Of a stretch of DNA of 64,000 nt, positions 13,975-26,962 are shown in pieces. The notes under the pieces were generated by a model. The model ran no database searches. It saw only the letters and a list, made by a program, of their open reading frames with translations, and was not told the DNA's origin. Both the position numbers and the translations under genes were made by a program. The DNA is from Gemmatimonadales bacterium (GTDB lineage: Bacteria; Gemmatimonadota; Gemmatimonadetes; Gemmatimonadales; GWC2-71-9). How positions within the stretch are numbered: position 1 is the first letter of the stretch; the number at the start of each line of letters is the position of its first letter. The DNA lies in contig DASYCE010000032.1 in NCBI GenBank assembly GCA_036500345.1, positions 1 through 64,000 on the forward strand, in the 5' to 3' direction.

Positions 13975-14460
13975 TCAGCCCTTCTTGTAGGTGGTCACCC
14001 GGGTCGTCGGATCGCCGCCGTTGCGGCCGGGAGCGGTCGTCGACACGATGAGATTTCCCGACGCATCGATCGACAGCGTCTGCACCGTCGTCGACGGTGT
14101 GCCGCCGAAGTCGCGGGTCGTCGAGATGTTCAGCTTGCCCGCGTCCCACTTGGCGTGCGAGACGACTTCCTGGGCACCGTTGCGGCCCTGCGTGGTGTTC
14201 TTGCTGTCCGAGCCATCGAGATTGTAGACCGACTTCGTCTCACCATTCTGCGTGGTGCGGGTGATGGTGAGCGTATTGGCATCCTGGGTCGCCGTGAATT
14301 CCTGACCGAAGCCGCCGAATCCACCGCGGCCACCAGCGGCTGCTGCGTTCGGGTCCGGCACCATCGTCCACTTGCCGGTGAAGTTCGGCGCTTGGGCGCC
14401 GAGTGCCACGGCGCTCACCGCCAGCGCAACCGTGGACATCATCAGTGCTACACGTCGCAT
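13975..14460 (-). CDS. Exported hypothetical protein with Gly-rich linker
   Basis: A 161-residue protein with a Sec signal peptide (VALMMSTVALAVSAVALGAQA, cleavage after AQA). The mature part starts NFTGKWTMVPDP, then has a Gly/Arg-rich patch (AAAAGGRGGFGGFG), then a beta-rich region with repeated strands (FTATQDANTLTITRTTQNGE; NLIVSTTAPGRNGGDPTTRVT). It resembles small exported lipocalin-like or beta-barrel proteins of Acidobacteria and Gemmatimonadota, without known function. It is closed by a strong terminator and is divergent from thiC. Confidence 0.8.
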   Translation of the reverse strand: MRRVALMMSTVALAVSAVALGAQAPNFTGKWTMVPDPNAAAAGGRGGFGGFGQEFTATQDANTLTITRTTQNGETKSVYNLDGSDSKNTTQGRNGAQEVVSHAKWDAGKLNISTTRDFGGTPSTTVQTLSIDASGNLIVSTTAPGRNGGDPTTRVTTYKKG

Positions 14461-14589: not shown

Positions 14590-16391
<1,802 letters not shown>

Positions 16392-16529
16392 GGGTGGGCG
16401 AACGGGGCGGGATCGACTTTACCTGATTCAAACATATTGGGGAGAAATTGAGGGGAAATTGACGGATTTGACCACCGGTCCGCGTTATTCGGGACTCGTC
16501 AATATCCCCGATCGCCCGTATTTTTCAGG

Positions 16530-18806
16530 ATGCACCCCCCAGTCCAGGCGGTGAGCGGCCTCTTCAAGGCTGTCCTCATCATCGGCCCTGTCGTCGAATG
16601 GGCGTCGGCGCTCCTCCTTGTGGGCGCCTTCGTGCTGCTGCTGCCGCTCTCCTCGCAGCGGCGGCTGGTGGTGATCTGGCTGACGGCCTGGGCAGCGCAG
16701 GCGTTCTCCCTGACCTATCCGGCGCTCGAGTCGATCGGGCAGATCGTCCATTCCGCTGGTGGTCCGGGGCTCGGTATGTGGGCCACGATCATCCTCCCGT
16801 TCTTCTGGCCGGCGCGGTTCCTCTTCATTGCCGCCGTCGGTTTTGGCGGCCTGTCCGCCGCCGGTCGCCGGGCCCCGGTGCACATCGAGCGGAGCGCGCT
16901 CATCGCCGTGGCGATCTTCGGCATCGGCCTCGGCGTTCTGGATGCAGACCGGATCGGCGGCGTGGTCGAGGCAATTGCGACGCCGCTGGTCTTCTTCGGT
17001 GCCGCGCAATTCATCTTTACCGCCGCCGTCGGCCCGCGATTTCGCGGACTCACCTTCCTCGGCGTTGTCACCACGCTGTACGGCACGCTGGCGACCTGCT
17101 ATCTGATCGACAAGCTGTCCCCCGGTTCGACCGGCTCCCTGATGACGCTGATCCACGTGGTGCGATTCTCGGCGTTGTACGGCGATGCCATCGCATTGGC
17201 ACTCCTTGGCGTCGGGGTGATCGTGGTGATCGTCCAGGAAGCCTTCCTCGATGTGATCGAGGCACACGAGAAGCGCATTCGCGCCGTCGCCGAATCGGAA
17301 TTCCGTCTCAACGACATTATCCAGGCGGCGCAGGAAGCGATCGTCACCTTCGACGCCGGCGGGCGAATCGAACTGGCCAATGAAGGCGCTGCCCTGTTGC
17401 TCGGTGTCGAACCCGGCGCACTCGTCGGCCAGCCGATCAGCGGGGTGATCGATCGTCCCACCGAATCGGTCCTCGACCTGATGCACGAGGCCGAAGTCCG
17501 CGCCAACCGCGACCTGATCACCTACCCCGCCTCCGGGATCCGGGTCGACGGTGAACGGTTCCCGATCGAATTCACCGTCGGGCGGCTTCGCAACGCCGAG
17601 AAACCCGGCGGCGTCGTCGTCATCCGCGACCTCACCCTCCAGCAGGCGATGCTGGCGGAGCGGGAGGAATTCGAGCGGAAGATGGCGGAGTCGGAGAAGA
17701 TGATGGCGATCGGCCGCGTCGTCTCCGGAGTGGCACACGAGCTCAACAACCCGCTCGCCGTCGTCCTGGGTGAAAGCGAACAGCTCGCCGAAACTGCACC
17801 GGGGGGCGAAGTACGCACCGGTCTCCGGATGATCCACGAACAGGCCAATCGCGCGCGCCACATCATTCGCGACCTTCTCGCGTTCGTGCGTCATCGCGAC
17901 GACCAGCGCGAGGAGATCAATCCGGTGCATCTCGTCGAGCGGACCGTTGCAACGCTGCGTCCGGTGGCCGAGGCTCGAAGCGTGACCCTGACGGCCGACA
18001 TCCCCGATCGTATGCACGCGATCCGTGTCGATCCTGCCGCAATCGAGCAGGTGCTCGTCAACTTGATCGACAACGCGTTCGATGCGGTGCCGGCCGGTGG
18101 CGCTGTCCGGGTTCGCATCCGGATCGCCGGCGATCGGGTGGAGTTGATCGTCGACGATACCGGTCCCGGCATCCCCGACGAACTGGTCGGCAAGGTGTTC
18201 GAGCCGTTCTACACCACGAAGGAGACGGGGCGCGGGCCGGGACTCGGCCTGTCGGTCTCGTTCGGAATCGCCGAACAGCATGACGGTTCGCTTCGGCTGG
18301 AAAACCGTCCCGCGAGCGGCATCGGCGCGCGCTTCATTTTGTCGCTCCCTTCCGCAGGCCCGGTTGCGGACACGACGCCGGCGATGAAGCGTCCCTTTCC
18401 CTCGCCGCCGCTCCGCGACGGCAAGGCGGCCGAAGTGATGCTGATCGACGATGAGCCGGCCGTCCGCGCAACGCTTGCCAAGCTCTTCGCTCGCACCGGA
18501 TGGCAGGTGCGCCAGGCCGCCAGTGGTCACGAGGCGATCGAGTGGTTGGCTCAGGTGTCCGACAGCGACGCACCGGTCGTGATCCTTTGCGACCTCAAGA
18601 TGCCGGGAATGGGCGGCCAGGAATTCCATCGTGAGATTTCCCGAACGCGCCCCGCGCTGGCGAAGCGGGTGATCTTCGTCACTGGAGACGCCGTCGAGTC
18701 GGTATCCAGCGGGTTCATCGCGGCGTCAGGTTGCCAGGTCGTGGAGAAACCATTTACGGTCGCCGAGATCGCTCGCGCCGTAAGCACCACGGTCAACGGC
18801 GAGTAA
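16530..18806 (+). CDS. Hybrid sensor histidine kinase (7TM-PAS-HisKA-HATPase-REC), copy 1
   Basis: A 758-residue inner-membrane kinase. Residues 1-235 have about seven hydrophobic helices with no large periplasmic loop; a PAS domain follows at about 255-380 (IIQAAQEAIVTFDAGGRIEL); the H-box is VVSGVAHELNNPLAVVLGES with H403; the ATPase has LVNLIDNAFDAV (N-box), DDTGPGIP and GPGLGLSVS; the C-terminal receiver has D688 in LCDLKMPGMGG. It should relay phosphate from H403 to its own receiver, then to an unknown histidine. It shares length, order and much sequence with the kinase at 19.4 kb. There is no cognate output gene adjacent. Confidence 0.93.
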   Translation: MHPPVQAVSGLFKAVLIIGPVVEWASALLLVGAFVLLLPLSSQRRLVVIWLTAWAAQAFSLTYPALESIGQIVHSAGGPGLGMWATIILPFFWPARFLFIAAVGFGGLSAAGRRAPVHIERSALIAVAIFGIGLGVLDADRIGGVVEAIATPLVFFGAAQFIFTAAVGPRFRGLTFLGVVTTLYGTLATCYLIDKLSPGSTGSLMTLIHVVRFSALYGDAIALALLGVGVIVVIVQEAFLDVIEAHEKRIRAVAESEFRLNDIIQAAQEAIVTFDAGGRIELANEGAALLLGVEPGALVGQPISGVIDRPTESVLDLMHEAEVRANRDLITYPASGIRVDGERFPIEFTVGRLRNAEKPGGVVVIRDLTLQQAMLAEREEFERKMAESEKMMAIGRVVSGVAHELNNPLAVVLGESEQLAETAPGGEVRTGLRMIHEQANRARHIIRDLLAFVRHRDDQREEINPVHLVERTVATLRPVAEARSVTLTADIPDRMHAIRVDPAAIEQVLVNLIDNAFDAVPAGGAVRVRIRIAGDRVELIVDDTGPGIPDELVGKVFEPFYTTKETGRGPGLGLSVSFGIAEQHDGSLRLENRPASGIGARFILSLPSAGPVADTTPAMKRPFPSPPLRDGKAAEVMLIDDEPAVRATLAKLFARTGWQVRQAASGHEAIEWLAQVSDSDAPVVILCDLKMPGMGGQEFHREISRTRPALAKRVIFVTGDAVESVSSGFIAASGCQVVEKPFTVAEIARAVSTTVNGE

Positions 18807-18923
18807 ACCAGCTCCGGAATACGTTGTGTTGCTGGTGTCGGTGCGGGTCGAGCGGTAACGTTGTCGCGCTTGCCGGGAATTCGCCCGGAAGCTCATTCAA
18901 CCATCCGTTCGCAGGAGCACCCA

Positions 18924-19172
18924 GTGAAGCGTTTTCCTCTCATGGTGGCGTCTGGCGCCATCGGCCTCGCACTCCTCGTTGGTGTTACTCACAAGCTGAC
19001 CGCATCCACCGAGACCGGGACGCCGCCCAGTGACGGTTACTGTTATTACCATCTCTGGAATTGCAGCTATGACGGAACTGGCTACTGGGATGGCTGCGAC
19101 CCGAATTACGCCGAGGGGTGGATTCCCACATCGTATGCGCGCGCCATTTGCACCACGTATCACGACAGGTAG
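18924..19172 (+). CDS. Small secreted cysteine-containing protein
   Basis: An 82-residue protein from GTG, preceded by CAGGAG. The N-terminal 30 residues are a signal peptide or membrane anchor (KRFPLMVASGAIGLALLVGV). The remainder is aromatic-rich with four cysteines spaced C-x7-C-x10-C-x17-C (YCYYHLWNCSYDG... YWDGCDPNYAEG... RAICTTYHDR), suggesting disulfides outside the membrane. I recognise no family. It lies between the twin kinases on the same strand. Confidence 0.7.
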   Translation: MKRFPLMVASGAIGLALLVGVTHKLTASTETGTPPSDGYCYYHLWNCSYDGTGYWDGCDPNYAEGWIPTSYARAICTTYHDR

Positions 19173-19377
19173 CCACTGAACGTTCCGCGGCGCGGTGCCT
19201 TGTACGGCATCGTGCGAGCTCCGAAGCGGGGACGGACCGCGGAGCGTCCGCGGTTCGTCTCCCGCCTTCGATCCCAACTGACCGCGAACGCCTTAGACTT
19301 CCGCTTATCCAGCCGATGATCGACATGCAGGGCTTCGTCACGCAGTTTCACCATCCACGACCGATCATCGGGACCTG

Positions 19378-21654
19378 ATGGCCTACTCGCCGCTCGACTT
19401 GATGGGGCTGGTGGTACAGTGGGTGAGTTCCCTCCTGCTGTTGCTTCTTTTCTATCGTGTCGGCCGTTTTGGCGCCCGGCGGCGGACGCTCCGGATCTGG
19501 ATGGCTGCATGGGCGGCTCAGGTCGCAGCGATCACCGGATTTGCCCTCCAGTCGCTCGCGGTCCTGATCGGGCATCCGCTGGCGACAGCCGGCGCATGGA
19601 TCGTCATCGACGATTTCTACGTCCCCGGAAAGCTGGTCTTCGACGGCCTCATCGCGCTCGGCGCGATGCAGGCGATCGGCCGCGAGGTCAACCGGAAGAT
19701 GATTCGGTGGGTCGTCCTGTCGCTGCTCGCGGTCGGTATCGCGGCGGTGCTCGTCGATTCTCGCGCCCTGACCGGCGGCCTCGAGGTTGGCGTCACCGTT
19801 GTTGTCTTCGCCGGCGCAGCGATCGCGGTTTTCCGCACCGTGCGCGACGAGGACCCCTCGCGACTCGCATTCCTCGCCGCGGCACTCGCGCTCTTTGGTA
19901 CCGTCACGACGATCTATCTCATCGGCGATTACTTCGGACCGCTGCCGGGAGACCTCGGCGCGTTCATCGGTGCCGTCAACAATTCGTCCGGATACGGCGA
20001 CGGACTGGTCTCGGCGGTTCTCGGTGCCGCCGTGATCATCCTGATCGTCGATGACGCCTTCCGCGCCGCCGATCGCGCGCGCGGCGAGCGGTTGCGTGAT
20101 CTCGCGGCATCGGAAGCACGGCTCACAGGCGTCATCGAGGCGGCGCGCGAAGCGATCCTCACGGTGGGGCCGGATGGACGGATTGACCTTGCCAATGCGA
20201 CCGCCGAGCGACGGTTCGGTGTGCGGCGCGGCGGCGCGCTGGGGCGGCCGCTCAGCGACTTCATCACCACCAGCGATCCACTGCACCAGCTCATCGAGGC
20301 GTCGTCGGCCGGCGATCGGACCAGCGCGTCGCTGACCGGCGAAGGTCGCCGCGACGACGGCACCATCTTCCCGGTCGAACTGACCCTCGGCGCCATCGAG
20401 CGTGATGGCCGCTCCGGTGCCGTCGCGATCATTCGCGATCTGACCGCCCGTCGAGCCGCGGACGCGGAACGAGAGGCATTCGAGCGTCGCATGGCGGAAT
20501 CGGAAAAGATGCTCGCCATCGGTCGCGTCGTCTCCGGCGTGGCACACGAGCTCAACAATCCGCTTGCCGTCGTGCTGGGGCAGAGCGAACAACTCGTCGA
20601 TTCGGCGAGTGCCGCCGACACGCGCGACGGCCTTCGACTGATCAATGAGCAGGCCCACCGCGCGCGGCGGATCGTGCGAGACCTTCTCGCCTTCGTTCAC
20701 CGCCGCGATGAAGTGCACGAGCCGGTCGATCTCAGTGACCTCATCACCCGCGTCGTCGCCGCGCAGCACGGCCGAGCGGATGAGCACGGCGTGTCGATCG
20801 TGACGGCGATCGATGGCGAGCCGTCCGTGGTGCTTGCCGGACGACTCGCCGTCGAGCAGGCGCTGGTCAACCTGATCGACAACGGACTCGACGCCGCCGG
20901 CCGCGGCGGCAGGGTGCGAATCGCCATCGGCCGCCGCGGAGAGCAGGCGGAGATTCACGTGGAGGACAGCGGCAGCGGCGTTCCCGACGAGCTTGTGCCG
21001 CGGATCTTCGAACCATTCTTCACCACCAAGCCGACGGGGCAGGGGACGGGACTCGGACTTGCCGTCTCCCTCGGCGCGGTGGAACGCCACGGCGGGTCGC
21101 TCCGGCTCGAAAACCGTCCCGCCCCGGGAATCGGCGCGCGCTTCATCGCGGCGTTTCCGCTCGACCAGCAGCCGCATGGCGCCGCCTCCGAGCCTCGATC
21201 GGGACGCCACAGGATCACCACGCTGCCACGCCCGATCGCCCGCTCCGACGGCGCGGTCGCCGAAACGATGCTGATTGACGATGAAGCAGCGGTGCGATCG
21301 ACGCTGTCGCGAATCTTTCAGCGCGGCGGTTGGCGCGTGCGTGAGGCGGCAACCGGAGAGGAAGCGTTGCACTGGCTGCTGCAGGTCCCTGAAAGCGCCG
21401 CACCCGATCTGCTCCTCTGTGATCTCAAGATGCCGGGACTGAGCGGCCGCGATGTGTACGCCCATCTTCAGCAACAGCGCCCGGCGTTGCTCGATCGATT
21501 GATCTTCGTCACCGGCGACGTGGCCGAGCCCGGGACCGCGGCGTTTCTCAAGGGGACCGGGCGTCCCGTCGTGGAGAAGCCGTTCACGGTGAGCGAAATT
21601 GCCGAGGCGGTCGAAGCGGTGCTGCATCCATCACCCGTTTCGTCCGAAGGATGA
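19378..21654 (+). CDS. Hybrid sensor histidine kinase (7TM-PAS-HisKA-HATPase-REC), copy 2
   Basis: A 758-residue kinase, same length and domain order as the one at 16.5 kb. Membrane domain at 1-230, PAS at about 245-365 (VIEAAREAILTVGPDGRIDL), H-box VVSGVAHELNNPLAVVLGQS with H390, ATPase LVNLIDNGLDAA, DSGSGVP and GTGLGLAVS, receiver D682 in LCDLKMPGLSG. The catalytic half is highly alike in the two copies while the membrane half has diverged, which suggests duplication followed by change of signal input. The frame is also open on the opposite strand through codon bias only. Confidence 0.93.
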   Translation: MAYSPLDLMGLVVQWVSSLLLLLLFYRVGRFGARRRTLRIWMAAWAAQVAAITGFALQSLAVLIGHPLATAGAWIVIDDFYVPGKLVFDGLIALGAMQAIGREVNRKMIRWVVLSLLAVGIAAVLVDSRALTGGLEVGVTVVVFAGAAIAVFRTVRDEDPSRLAFLAAALALFGTVTTIYLIGDYFGPLPGDLGAFIGAVNNSSGYGDGLVSAVLGAAVIILIVDDAFRAADRARGERLRDLAASEARLTGVIEAAREAILTVGPDGRIDLANATAERRFGVRRGGALGRPLSDFITTSDPLHQLIEASSAGDRTSASLTGEGRRDDGTIFPVELTLGAIERDGRSGAVAIIRDLTARRAADAEREAFERRMAESEKMLAIGRVVSGVAHELNNPLAVVLGQSEQLVDSASAADTRDGLRLINEQAHRARRIVRDLLAFVHRRDEVHEPVDLSDLITRVVAAQHGRADEHGVSIVTAIDGEPSVVLAGRLAVEQALVNLIDNGLDAAGRGGRVRIAIGRRGEQAEIHVEDSGSGVPDELVPRIFEPFFTTKPTGQGTGLGLAVSLGAVERHGGSLRLENRPAPGIGARFIAAFPLDQQPHGAASEPRSGRHRITTLPRPIARSDGAVAETMLIDDEAAVRSTLSRIFQRGGWRVREAATGEEALHWLLQVPESAAPDLLLCDLKMPGLSGRDVYAHLQQQRPALLDRLIFVTGDVAEPGTAAFLKGTGRPVVEKPFTVSEIAEAVEAVLHPSPVSSEG

Positions 21655-21901
21655 AACGACCCGTGCCGGCGAGCACGCCCGGGCGGAGGCGGCGGAGCTG
21701 ACTCGATCGACCGCACGAGCGCGTCACGAGTAATTCGTCTGTCGCTTTGACAACCGCGCTGCCGTGATGACCGGGGGAACGTCCCCTCTCTGTCGCTCCT
21801 GGCAGGAAACTTCTGGCATGGCCGATGCCCACCTCCCCTGCGACGCGACATCAGTCGCCATTGCACCAACACCGAGTGCCCGAGGGGGCAGGAGCATACG
21901 A

Positions 21902-22285
21902 ATGAGGACCAGCAACGGATGGGGCCGGCAGTGGCCCAACTCGCAATTCACCATCGAGCCGGCGATCGATCGTTTCTTTGCGCGCGCGTTTGACGTGCCG
22001 GTATGGAGCGGCGGCGCTGATGTACGCGAACTCGAAGATCACGCCGAGATCACGGTTGATGTGCCGGGCGTGAAGCCCGAGCAGATCGAGGTCACCGCCG
22101 AACACCGCACCCTCACCGTCAAGGTGACCCGCGACGGCCGGACGCCGAGCGTGCGCCAGTACACGATCGGCACGAAATACGACATCGGCCAGGTCACCGC
22201 ACGAGTGGAGCTTGGCGTGTTGACCCTCCATCTGCCGAAAGCCGCCGAGGCGCAGGTTCGGACGGTGCCGATCACCGTCGCGTAA
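21902..22285 (+). CDS. Hsp20/alpha-crystallin small heat-shock protein
   Basis: A 127-residue ATP-independent holdase. After a short N-terminal arm (EPAIDRFFARAFDVP) comes the alpha-crystallin domain: AEITVDVPGVKPEQIEVTAE, LTVKVTRDGRTP and the diagnostic A-x-x-x-n-GVL motif VTARVELGVLTLHLPKAAEA. The ATG follows GCAGGAG at good spacing; the longer frame upstream is cysteine-containing and unlike the family. No CIRCE element is visible in the upstream 250 bases. A strong terminator follows. Confidence 0.92.
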   Translation: MRTSNGWGRQWPNSQFTIEPAIDRFFARAFDVPVWSGGADVRELEDHAEITVDVPGVKPEQIEVTAEHRTLTVKVTRDGRTPSVRQYTIGTKYDIGQVTARVELGVLTLHLPKAAEAQVRTVPITVA

Positions 22286-22358
22286 GCGAGTCGGCGCTTC
22301 GTTCCGGGGCGCGGAGTCGCCACCGCGCGATCGCCCCGCCCGATACACCAACCTCGCG

Positions 22359-22398
22359 ACTGCCGCACCCCGTTTCGGGCGTGCGGCAGTTGTCGTTT
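22359..22398 (+). terminator. Rho-independent terminator after hsp20
   Basis: ACTGCCGCAC (22359-22368) pairs with GTGCGGCAGT (22381-22390), continued inward by CCCG/CGGG around TTT. TGTCGTTTCT follows. Confidence 0.85.
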
Positions 22399-22468
22399 CT
22401 GCGTTCCGGTTATCCTGTACGATGTGCTGCGGTTTCTGCGTCTCCAACGCGACCAGGAGGGAACGCCC

Positions 22469-23833
22469 ATGTTTGCCACCGTCAATCCCGCTACCGGCGA
22501 AACGCTCGCCGAATACCCATCGCTCAGCGGCACGGACCTGCGAACGATACTGACCCGCGCCGACGCGGCGTGGGAGAGCTGGCGCACCACATCATTCGGT
22601 GAAAGAGCGGCGCTGATCCGCAAGGTCGGCGCGCTCCTTCGAGACCGGACGACCGAGTATGCCCGCCTCATGGCGCTCGAAATGGGGAAGCCGATTGCGT
22701 CGGGGCGGAGCGAAGCGGAGAAGTGCGCCACTGCCTGCGATTACTACGCCGAGCACGCGGAAACCTTCCTCGCCGACGAGATCGTCGCCACTGATGCATC
22801 GAGGAGCTACGTCCATTACGAGCCGCTCGGTGCGGTGCTCGCCATCATGCCATGGAACTTTCCCTTCTGGCAGGTGATCCGCTTCGCCGCGCCGACGCTG
22901 ATGGCCGGGAACGTGGCACTCCTGAAACACGCCGCCAACGTCCCCGGGTGCGCCGGTGCGCTCGAACAGCTCTTCCTCGACGCGGGATTTCCGCGCGGCG
23001 TCTTCCAGAATCTCTACGTGGAGCACGATCTCGTGGGGCGGATCATCCGGCATCGTGCCGTGCACGCCATCACGCTCACCGGCAGCACGCGCGCGGGGCG
23101 CGACGTGGCGAAGCAAGCTGGCGCCCGCCTCAAGAAGACCGTGCTCGAACTCGGCGGTAGCGATCCATACGTCATCCTGGACGACGCCGACCTGGATCTT
23201 GCGGTCGAGACCTGCGTGTCGAGCCGGTTGATCAACACCGGCCAGAGCTGCATCGCCGCGAAGCGCTTCGTGGTGGTGGAGAAGGTCCGCGAGGAATTCA
23301 CCGCGCAGTTCGTGGAGCGGATGCGCGCGGTCACGATGGGCGATCCGCTCGACGAACGGAACTCGATCGGACCGCTGGCGCGGCGCGACCTGCGCGACAC
23401 GCTGCACGACCAGGTCGAGCGCAGTATCGCCAAGGGCGCATCGCTCCTCCTCGGCGGAAAGCGTCCTGATGGGCCCGGGGCGTTCTACCCGCCGACCGTT
23501 CTCGCCAATGTCGCCAAGGGGATGGCAGCCTACACGGAGGAACTGTTCGGACCGGTGGCCTCGATCATTCCGGCGCGCAATGAACGCGCGGCGATCCGGA
23601 TCGCCAACGATTCGGTCTTCGGTCTCGGGGCTGCGGTCTTCACCCGCGACCTCGACCGCGGCGAGCGGATTGCCGCGCGAGAGCTCAGGGCCGGTTCGTG
23701 TTTCGTCAATGCGTTCGTCAAGTCGGATGCGCGGCTGCCGTTTGGGGGGATCAAGGAAAGCGGCTACGGGCGCGAGCTTTCGCAGCACGGCATACGCGAG
23801 TTCGTCAACGTCAAGACGGTCTATGTGAAGTAG
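22469..23833 (+). CDS. NAD(P)-dependent aldehyde dehydrogenase, succinate-semialdehyde type
   Basis: A 454-residue ALDH of the YneI/Sad branch. The family pieces are MPWNFPFWQVIRFAAPTLMA (cofactor site), TGSTRAGRDVAKQAG, the general base in LELGGSDPYVIL, catalytic Cys in NTGQSCIAAKRF and the C-terminal SDARLPFGGIKESGYGREL. It probably oxidises succinate semialdehyde or a similar short aldehyde; the exact substrate and NAD/NADP choice are open. The ATG follows AGGAGGGAACGCCC. It has its own transcription unit between hsp20 and padR. Confidence 0.93.
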   Translation: MFATVNPATGETLAEYPSLSGTDLRTILTRADAAWESWRTTSFGERAALIRKVGALLRDRTTEYARLMALEMGKPIASGRSEAEKCATACDYYAEHAETFLADEIVATDASRSYVHYEPLGAVLAIMPWNFPFWQVIRFAAPTLMAGNVALLKHAANVPGCAGALEQLFLDAGFPRGVFQNLYVEHDLVGRIIRHRAVHAITLTGSTRAGRDVAKQAGARLKKTVLELGGSDPYVILDDADLDLAVETCVSSRLINTGQSCIAAKRFVVVEKVREEFTAQFVERMRAVTMGDPLDERNSIGPLARRDLRDTLHDQVERSIAKGASLLLGGKRPDGPGAFYPPTVLANVAKGMAAYTEELFGPVASIIPARNERAAIRIANDSVFGLGAAVFTRDLDRGERIAARELRAGSCFVNAFVKSDARLPFGGIKESGYGRELSQHGIREFVNVKTVYVK

Positions 23834-23880: not shown

Positions 23881-23929
23881 TTGACACCCGGTCACTCCCC
23901 GTGTAGTGTTTACCGTAGCACACACGGGG
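23881..23929 (+). promoter_or_regulatory. padR promoter with overlapping palindromic operator
   Basis: TTGACA (-35, 23881-23886), 17-base spacer, TAGTGT (-10, 23904-23909). A palindrome CCCCGTGT (23897-23904) / ACACGGGG (23922-23929) brackets the -10 and likely start site. It is placed exactly where an autoregulatory PadR dimer would block transcription. Confidence 0.75.
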
Positions 23930-23940
23930 AACGTTCTCTG

Positions 23941-24291
23941 ATGTCCAGCACCGACACGCCGGTGCCCTTGCTCAAGGGCACGCTTGATCTCCTGATCCTC
24001 AAGGCTCTGACCTGGGGCCCCCTCCACGGTTACGCCATCTCCACCTGGCTCGATCAGCGCGCCGGCGGCACCTTCGAGGTCGACGACAGCGCGTTGTATC
24101 AGGCGCTTCAGCGCATGGAGGGTCGAGGTCTCCTTACCGCCGGATGGGGAGTCACCGAGAACAACCGCCGCGCGAGATACTATCGCCTCACGGCGGCAGG
24201 GCGCACCCGGTTGCGGGTCGACATGCACGTGTGGCTCCGCTATACCCGCTCGGTGACCACTATCCTCGCGCTTGCCCAGCGCACGGCGTGA
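23941..24291 (+). CDS. PadR-family transcriptional regulator
   Basis: A 116-residue regulator beginning MSSTDTPVPLLKGTLDLLIL, with recognition region SALYQALQRMEGRGLLTAGW and wing [18 protein letters not shown]. It is closely similar to the PadR at 3.1 kb. The ATG fits the family opening; an in-frame upstream codon lies inside the promoter and is rejected. It sits directly before an ADOP permease and probably represses both genes through the palindrome in its promoter. Confidence 0.94.
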   Translation: MSSTDTPVPLLKGTLDLLILKALTWGPLHGYAISTWLDQRAGGTFEVDDSALYQALQRMEGRGLLTAGWGVTENNRRARYYRLTAAGRTRLRVDMHVWLRYTRSVTTILALAQRTA

Positions 24292-24298
24292 CGATCCG

Positions 24299-26962
24299 GT
24301 GATCGACGGATCCCGCGACCGGCGTATCGACCTGCCCAGCCTTGGGCGGCGGCCGGATGCGGAAATGGACCACGAAATCGACGCCCATCTCCAATTGGCG
24401 ATTGACGACCTGGTCGCCGACGGGACCCCGCCCGAGGCCGCACGCCGCCTGGCCGAGCTGCGATTTGGAGACCTGAGGACCGCACGACATCAACTGCACA
24501 TCGCCGCTCGCCGGCGGGAGGTAGCCTTGCGACGTCGTGACTGGCTCGGGGCAGTCGCAGCCGACATGCGATTTGCGGCGCGGCAGATCCGTCGCAGTGC
24601 GGCGCACTCCGCGCTGACCATCGGGACGCTCGCCCTCGGCATCGGGGTCACGACCGCGATCTTCACGTTGGTCGAGCGCGTCCTGTTGCGCCCACTTCCG
24701 TTTGCGCATGCGGAGCAGCTGGTCTCGTTGCAGGGAGAGGATTCGCTGCGTCGGCCGGTCTTCAGCGTGTCCACCGACGACGCCCTGGATTGGCGTGACC
24801 AATCACGATCGCTTGCCGGAATTGCGCTGCACAGTTTTCCGTCGCGCTACGGCGTCACCACAGGCGACAGCGCGACACGCCTGAATCTTGTGTCGGCAAG
24901 CGGCGATTTCTTCCCGGTGTTGGGGACGCACTTTCTGGCCGGCCGCCCGTTCAACGTGGCCGAGGCTCAATCGCGTGATCGTGTGGCAGTCGTGAGTGAG
25001 CAGACATGGCGCAACTACCTCGGCGGCGACCCCGCGCTCCTCAAGCCGCTCGTCATCGGATCGAACACGTACCAGGTCGTTGGCGTGGTCGCGACCGGCG
25101 CGGAATACCCCGCCGGAACGGACGTGTGGGTCCCCATGATGCTCGTGCGCGGGGCGGGAGGAGCGCTGCGCAACAACATCAATTACCAGGCCATCGGCCG
25201 TCTCAAAGTCGGATCAACAATCGACCAGACTACCCGGGACCTGCTTCGAGTCTCGCGGAATATTCGAGCCCATGACCAGGGCGGCCTTTACGACTTCGGC
25301 GTTGCTGTTGCGCCGCTCAGCACCGTAATCGTTGGTGCGGACATCGCACGGAGCCTGCGCCTGTTGATGCGTTCCGTGCTGATGGTCCTGCTGCTCGTCT
25401 GTGCGAACCTGACCATCGCCACGCTCAGCCGTGGGGCGGCGCGTCAACAGGAGATGGCGGTGCGGGCGTCACTCGGTGCCACCCGCGGCAGGTTGATGAT
25501 ACAGCTGCTGGTTGAACACCTGCTGCTGGCGTTGACGGGCGGTGCAGCCGGGATCGCGGTTGCGTGGGTAACCGTACGCGCGATGATCGCAACATGGGGA
25601 GACTGGATTCCCCGCGCGTCAGAGGTCCATCTCGATCTTTCGGTCGTCGGCTTCGCCGCGGCGGTGGCGATCACGGTGGGTGTCCTGGTCGGGTTGCTAC
25701 CTGCGTTCCGTGGGTCGCGCGCATCGCTGCAACAGGCGATGCAACACGGGGGACGCATCGCATCGGGCGGGACCCGCGTTGCACGGAGTCTCGTCGTCGC
25801 GGAGTTCGCCCTTGCGCTCACATTGCTCGCCGGTGCCGGCATCCTGATTCATTCCTTTCAGCGTCTGCTCGGGCACAGCCTGGGCTTCGACCGCCGCGTG
25901 GCGACCGTCGAGGTAGTCCTCTCGGGGCCGAAGTACGCTGCGGACTCGCGGCAGCGGCTCGAAACCTGGGATCAGCTGATCGGGGCATTCCGAGCGATCC
26001 CGGGTGTCACACGGGTTGGCGTCGCGAATTGGATTCCCCTCGGCACGGCCGGCAGCAGTTTTGTCGATATCGCCGGTAGCGATCAACCAAACGAGGGAGC
26101 AGGGTATCGCGTCGTCAGTGAGGACTACCTGACGGCGCTCGGTGTTCACCTCATGCGGGGACGGCGCTTTGGCGCGGACGATGGCGCGAGCGGAGCCCCG
26201 GTCGTCCTGATCAACCAGGCAATGGCCGAGAGGTATTGGCCCAAGGGGAATCCGATCGGCCAGCAGATACGGGCGAAGAGCATGGAAGCTGGACCGCACG
26301 GCGCGCAGGACGCACCGTGGCGGACCGTCATCGGCGTCGTCAGCAACCTGCGCCAATGGGGGCCTGCGAGCGATCCACTGCCAGAGATGTATGCATCGTT
26401 TCGACAGGCGCCCGGCTGGAGTACCACGAGCATGACGGCGGTGATCCGTAGCGCGCTTCCGCCGGCCCAGCTCTTCCCGATGATCCGCACGAAGCTGCGC
26501 GAGGTCGATCCGCATCTCGCCGCCGACGTGAGCACGATGGATATCCAGCTGTCGAACCAGCTTGCGCCGCGACGACTGACGATGCTGTTGCTCACCGGCT
26601 TCGCAGGGCTCGCCGTGCTGCTTGCGGCGCTCGGAGTATATGCCGTGCTCTCCTATACGGTGGTGCTCCAGGCGCGGGAGATTGCGATCAGGAGCGCACT
26701 GGGCGCGCAACGGTCTGATCTGCTCGCCACGGTGGTCCGCAACGGTGCGACCACGGCCGGAGCGGGGATTGTGCTGGGAATCGGTGCGGCGGCCACGCTG
26801 TCGCGATTGTTGCAGGCAATGGTGGTCGACGTGACCACGCTCGATCCACTGGCGTTCGGCGGCGCGGTTCTCGTGCTTGGAATTGCTGGAGCAGGTGCGA
26901 TCCTGATTCCGGCGGTACGCGCCACGAGGGTGGATCCGCTGCGCATCATGAAAGGAGAGTGA
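24299..26962 (+). CDS. ADOP-family ABC permease (MacB/FtsX-like), PadR-linked
   Basis: An 887-residue permease: soluble N-terminal prefix (DAEMDHEIDAHLQLAIDDLV... LAELRFGD), TM helix in SALTIGTLALGIGVTTAIFT, MacB-type periplasmic domain, FtsX block (LMRSVLMVLLLVCANLTIAT; RQQEMAVRASLGATRGRL), then a second copy ending in REIAIRSALGAQRSDLLATV and ATRVDPLRIMKGE. The GTG is seven bases after the padR stop; a TTG inside padR is an alternative. No ATPase partner gene is present. It is a paralogue of the 0.4-3.1 kb gene, with the same padR-permease arrangement. Confidence 0.92.
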   Translation: MIDGSRDRRIDLPSLGRRPDAEMDHEIDAHLQLAIDDLVADGTPPEAARRLAELRFGDLRTARHQLHIAARRREVALRRRDWLGAVAADMRFAARQIRRSAAHSALTIGTLALGIGVTTAIFTLVERVLLRPLPFAHAEQLVSLQGEDSLRRPVFSVSTDDALDWRDQSRSLAGIALHSFPSRYGVTTGDSATRLNLVSASGDFFPVLGTHFLAGRPFNVAEAQSRDRVAVVSEQTWRNYLGGDPALLKPLVIGSNTYQVVGVVATGAEYPAGTDVWVPMMLVRGAGGALRNNINYQAIGRLKVGSTIDQTTRDLLRVSRNIRAHDQGGLYDFGVAVAPLSTVIVGADIARSLRLLMRSVLMVLLLVCANLTIATLSRGAARQQEMAVRASLGATRGRLMIQLLVEHLLLALTGGAAGIAVAWVTVRAMIATWGDWIPRASEVHLDLSVVGFAAAVAITVGVLVGLLPAFRGSRASLQQAMQHGGRIASGGTRVARSLVVAEFALALTLLAGAGILIHSFQRLLGHSLGFDRRVATVEVVLSGPKYAADSRQRLETWDQLIGAFRAIPGVTRVGVANWIPLGTAGSSFVDIAGSDQPNEGAGYRVVSEDYLTALGVHLMRGRRFGADDGASGAPVVLINQAMAERYWPKGNPIGQQIRAKSMEAGPHGAQDAPWRTVIGVVSNLRQWGPASDPLPEMYASFRQAPGWSTTSMTAVIRSALPPAQLFPMIRTKLREVDPHLAADVSTMDIQLSNQLAPRRLTMLLLTGFAGLAVLLAALGVYAVLSYTVVLQAREIAIRSALGAQRSDLLATVVRNGATTAGAGIVLGIGAAATLSRLLQAMVVDVTTLDPLAFGGAVLVLGIAGAGAILIPAVRATRVDPLRIMKGE

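Follow-up and report, generated by a model that had tools for sequence, protein, structure and literature searches.

Two thiC-linked hybrid histidine kinases with an unnamed membrane sensor and an intervening secreted-type cysteine peptide in a Gemmatimonadales genome

Results

In the present study, we analysed a window of 64,000 nucleotides, which is the whole stretch of DNA considered here (contig DASYCE010000032.1 of a Gemmatimonadales bacterium). Two histidine kinase genes, named KinA and KinB, lie downstream of thiC, and a gene for a small peptide lies between them. The genome of the window itself is designated G000; other G-numbers are the genomes of relatives, and L-numbers are loci. 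The following features were located:

14590-14694 (+): TPP riboswitch upstream of thiC (Rfam RF00059, 69.5 bits, E 1.3e-11)
14703-16391 (+): thiC, conserved on the upstream side of the kinase locus (Pfam ThiC_Rad_SAM, E 3.6e-186)
16530-18806 (+): KinA, a 758-aa hybrid histidine kinase, 7TM-PAS-HisKA-HATPase-REC (Pfam and hydrophobic segments)
18924-19172 (+): secreted-type peptide of 82 aa with four Cys; GTG start, ribosome-binding site AGGAG six bases upstream, homologues in G007 and G004
about 19190-19215: second hairpin in the gap between peptide and KinB
19222-19270 (+): strong hairpin between peptide and KinB, a possible transcript end (RNA fold)
19378-21654 (+): KinB, a 758-aa hybrid histidine kinase with the architecture of KinA (Pfam)
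21764-22285 (+): HSP20 family protein, a conserved downstream marker of the locus (Pfam, E 6.7e-11)

HSP20 homologues were found at the matching site in G004, G009 and G003. The region 19170-19300 folds at -69.4 kcal/mol (z -4.97), and none of 200 shuffled sequences equalled this value (RNA fold). Since the hairpins of the window and that of G007, described below, have no U tract, termination at them can only be presumed.

The two kinases are of equal length, run in the same direction and have the same domain order in Pfam (PAS-HisKA-HATPase_c-Response_reg), in agreement with a preliminary description of this DNA. In both, HisKA, HATPase_c and Response_reg scored above cut-off, which identifies them as hybrid histidine kinases. 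When the sequences were read by eye, both were seen to keep the residues that we take to be the phosphoacceptor His, the N and G boxes and the receiver Asp and Lys; GPGLGL in KinA corresponds to GTGLGL in KinB. The best NCBIfam matches were EspC, AtoS and CckA, all far below cut-off, and no named equivalog applies. The catalytic core, the His box and the terminal receiver are those of PAS-HisKA-HATPase-REC hybrid kinases, but KinA and KinB differ from the named ones by their sensor. This comprises the N-terminal 235-248 residues with about seven hydrophobic helices in each kinase, a polytopic module without a large external domain, and it had no match to any Pfam or NCBIfam family, the named membrane sensor models included. 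Its structure model (pLDDT 55) served for the helix count only. The kinases are ordinary in architecture and carry an unnamed sensor.

A profile of the 7TM module matched 25 of 250 genomes of the order at E 1e-6. Eight distant members, chosen from the matches of this profile search, were scanned for their output domains; five carried GGDEF and three a hybrid-kinase output, meaning that the unnamed sensor module of the kinases is also fused to GGDEF domains elsewhere in the order. At L250, L251, L254, L258 and L265, the same module is fused directly to the GGDEF domain. MASE1 (DgcE) is described as a polytopic N-terminal module common to c-di-GMP enzymes and histidine kinases, of about 300 aa and ten segments (PMC6510439). 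The module of the window is alike in occurring on both kinases and GGDEF proteins, and differs in having about 235 aa, seven helices and no Pfam or NCBIfam match.

The kinase gene adjoins thiC in G000, G004, G007 and G011, with a gap of 12 bases in G011. The thiC genes nearest to that of the window are those of G001 and G009 (88%, against 83-84%), and at the thiC site of these two genomes lie proteins of 437 and 449 aa, which consist of the 7TM module and a receiver and have no PAS, HisKA or HATPase domain:

L240:3344-4657 (+) and L221:3129-4478 (+): thiC-linked 7TM-receiver proteins of G001 and G009

The receiver of G009 has Ser at the phosphoacceptor position. No kinase adjoins thiC in G003 and G006, and no thiC match was obtained in G002 and G008. 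Judged by synteny, the kinase site is an old thiC-linked position, and the proteins of G001 and G009 are products of the thiC-linked kinase gene minus its kinase core, with PAS, HisKA and HATPase lost. They form a natural series in which the role of the sensor can be studied separately from catalysis. A DUF885 gene of G009 (L241:7105-7594) matches the G004 protein only near residues 38-108 and 535-616, as if internally deleted.

KinA and KinB are 44% identical over 754 columns, sensor included (540 bits, BLASTP). The identity is 75% in HisKA, 53% in REC, 49% in HATPase, 40% in PAS and about 31-32% in the sensor; as the alignment contains 15 gap positions, the equal length of the kinases is a coincidence. 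In their own genome, each is the sole match of the other at E 1e-60 or better, and a scan of the contigs with KinB returned three loci, which showed nothing beyond general matches to kinases or receivers. The preliminary description had called the catalytic halves very similar and the sensors different, and had explained this by duplication with sensor divergence. The likeness of the catalytic halves was borne out by the shared motif and by HisKA, but the sensors are homologous too, at about 32% and with the same pattern of seven helices. Paralogy of the kinases also stands, whereas a local or recent duplication is disfavoured by trees of sensor and REC. Aligned domain by domain, the pair shows homology from end to end, but each kinase is at least as near to the single-copy thiC-adjacent orthologues of G004 and G007 as to the other kinase.

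A recent tandem duplication of one kinase, followed by divergence of the sensor halves, would account for the common architecture and length, the tandem order and the overall identity of the pair. Moreover, a full-length tree of seven rows, which left out G001 and G009, did not reject KinA and KinB as sisters (p 0.351). Once G001 and G009 were included, however, the sister grouping was rejected with sensor and REC together (AU p 0.0096 with G011, 0.0146 without G011); the rejection was weaker with the sensor alone (p 0.039), and REC alone did not reject it (p 0.098). By path, the nearest neighbours of KinB are the G001 and G009 proteins of 7TM-REC type, a grouping unstarred in the trees (65/93 and 77/96), and the KinB sensor is 43% identical to that of G001, against 31% to that of KinA. 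We regard a recent duplication as very improbable, and KinA and KinB are best read as old paralogues.

The hydrophobic, signal-like N-terminus and the four Cys previously noted in the 82-aa ORF are indeed present. Its GC content at third positions is 0.68, compared with 0.79-0.86 in the neighbouring genes and 0.87-0.88 in two homologues, so that codon composition alone gives weak support for a gene; homology is the stronger support. Two other genomes have homologues (E 1e-9 and 3e-5), and all four Cys align among them. At E 0.001 or better, the peptide occurs in three of 395 genomes of the phylum (G000, G004 and G007), all within one genus, of which ten genomes were searched. A match in G039 (E 0.006) is, judging by the reading frames there, probably due to chance, and those in G001 and G242 contain internal stops. 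Neither the peptide nor its homologues matched any Pfam family. An SH3 fold was set aside, the matches being weak (E 0.074) and the stretch poorly shared by the homologues, and with pLDDT 63 the AlphaFold model was too poor for a fold search.

Within the genus, the peptide is present in all three genomes with a complete thiC-linked kinase and in none of the seven without one (Fisher 0.008, kinship ignored); when only the seven genomes whose thiC locus can be read are counted, the value is 0.029. This co-occurrence holds although the thiC of G000 is nearer to those of G001 and G009 than to those of the other relatives. Together with the adjacency of peptide and kinase in two of the three carriers (G000 and G007), it favours a functional link. 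The synteny check proposed in the preliminary description gave a divided answer, as the peptide lies beside the kinase in G007 and 374 kb away from it in G004. This separation, the kinase without a peptide at thiC in G011, which belongs to another genus, and the hairpins of G007 and the window all speak against a tie. The G007 locus runs from thiC through the kinase, a 21-bp hairpin (z -5.82, RNA fold) and the peptide to the propeller lipoprotein.

It could be proposed that the peptide serves the 7TM kinases as an external ligand or as an accessory in the periplasm, being exported, oxidised and sensed by the membrane modules. Such a system would be a Gram-negative analogue of peptide-pheromone receptors. 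AgrC and ComD are receptors of this kind, in which a polytopic kinase is encoded near a small secreted peptide. That neighbourhood recurs here by analogy, and the adjacency in two carriers, the restriction of the peptide in the genus to genomes with the complete kinase and a polytopic sensor without an external domain of its own would all suit a ligand. On the other hand, the kinases of the window are hybrids with PAS and REC, no adjacent separate regulator was seen, and the peptide has a Sec-type signal and Cys pairs, in all of which the locus differs from AgrC/ComD. The distance in G004 and, in G007, the hairpin before the peptide with the propeller gene directly after it also weigh against this explanation, as do genomes that have no peptide and yet carry the 7TM module on kinases and GGDEF proteins. 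Furthermore, among 81 loci of kinases or 7TM proteins (overlaps included), no convincing Cys peptide was found besides the two known ones, three further filter matches looking spurious. A sensor-ligand link between kinases and peptide is possible, but we consider it unlikely.

A propeller lipoprotein gene lies directly downstream of the peptide homologue in both other carriers, and the propellers of G004 and G007 are 35% identical. G002, which has no close homologue of the peptide, has another secreted peptide with four Cys ahead of a propeller. Neither the G004 nor the G007 propeller matched a Pfam family above cut-off, and a relative of them in G008 matches DUF5128, a 6-bladed propeller family. 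For a wider count, propellers of relatives were compared with control ORFs; flanking sequence was sufficient for 99 of 135 unique propellers and for 120 of 311 controls. A small ORF of secreted type with 4-10 Cys lies upstream of 9 of the 99 usable propellers and of none of the 120 usable controls; when the two loci found via the peptide were excluded, the counts were 7/97 and 0/120 (Fisher p 0.003). The count was not blind, because the earliest peptides encountered had guided the design of the filter, and only about 9% of propellers carry such a peptide. The contrast between strands is weak, the antisense control giving 3/99 against 9/99 on the sense strand (p 0.07, not significant). Contigs 12 and 31 of the window's own genome carry two further loci of this type.

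Secreted peptides with 4-8 Cys lie upstream of propeller lipoproteins at L200, L141, L151 and L120, L151 having passed the first filter and not the later upstream-gap rule. At L200:440-2906 (+), the order is DsbA-like gene, 8-Cys peptide and propeller. DsbA-like genes adjoin L200, L090 and L188, with no Cys peptide seen at L188. The neighbours at L151 and L120 gave weak thioredoxin-type matches below cut-off, and the neighbour at L141 gave none. By this comparison, the peptide of the window seems to be a component of a propeller cassette, in a class with mostly 4, 6 or 8 Cys. The window itself contains no propeller gene, hence none directly downstream of its peptide, and a search for a hidden propeller or DUF885 remnant found neither.

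Discussion

On balance, the locus is somewhat better explained as two things sharing one site, namely thiC-linked sensor kinases and a peptide from a propeller cassette. For the kinases, architecture, synteny and old paralogy are established at the level of sequence comparison, and their signal, the phosphorelay and any co-expression with thiC are inferred. The most likely function of KinA and KinB is to sense, through the 7TM module, a condition of the membrane or periplasm; they would then autophosphorylate, and the phosphate would travel via the receiver to an HPt protein or regulator that is unlinked. The 82-aa protein would be a member of a loose class of Sec-type secreted, multi-Cys peptides upstream of 6-bladed-propeller lipoproteins. 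It would probably be exported, form disulfides and be retained or act at the cell surface together with a propeller protein. Since no propeller adjoins it in the window and KinB occupies that place, the peptide would either use an unlinked propeller or have joined the kinase circuit. For the peptide, a chance or weakly functional neighbourhood is somewhat likelier than a role as dedicated kinase ligand.

The preliminary description had also allowed that the middle protein is an output of the pair. As a secreted product under kinase control, for example a surface or antagonistic peptide, it would be expected to adjoin and accompany the kinase as it does, and in G004 a response regulator gene and a DsbA-like gene come after the peptide and its propeller. 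However, no separate response regulator adjoins the kinases among the genes of the window that were examined with Pfam, and no simple sigma-70-type promoter-like site was seen within 16300-22500. We consider an output role doubtful. It is quite improbable that a secreted disulfide peptide of the propeller-cassette class became the signal of the thiC-linked 7TM kinase pair, and that relatives lost the kinase core along with the peptide and kept 7TM-receiver proteins, one of them without the phosphoacceptor Asp.

As to the preferred reading of a propeller-cassette peptide, NVEALA-type loci of Bacteroidota have a small secreted peptide upstream of a DUF5128-type 6-bladed propeller, and Pfam holds a model of the NVEALA-type peptide. 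The loci described here presumably resemble them. They differ in that the window peptide and its homologues have no Pfam match and six other Cys peptides do not match the NVEALA model. Our literature search on NVEALA, DUF5128 or membrane-bound receiver proteins found no relevant report. The recurrent pairing of Cys peptide, propeller and DsbA-like gene suggests a peptide system at the cell surface.

Elsewhere in the window, an ORF of 161 aa at 13975-14460 (-) begins with a signal-like segment and matches no Pfam family, and a PadR regulator adjoins a MacB/FtsX-type permease at 23881-26962 (+).
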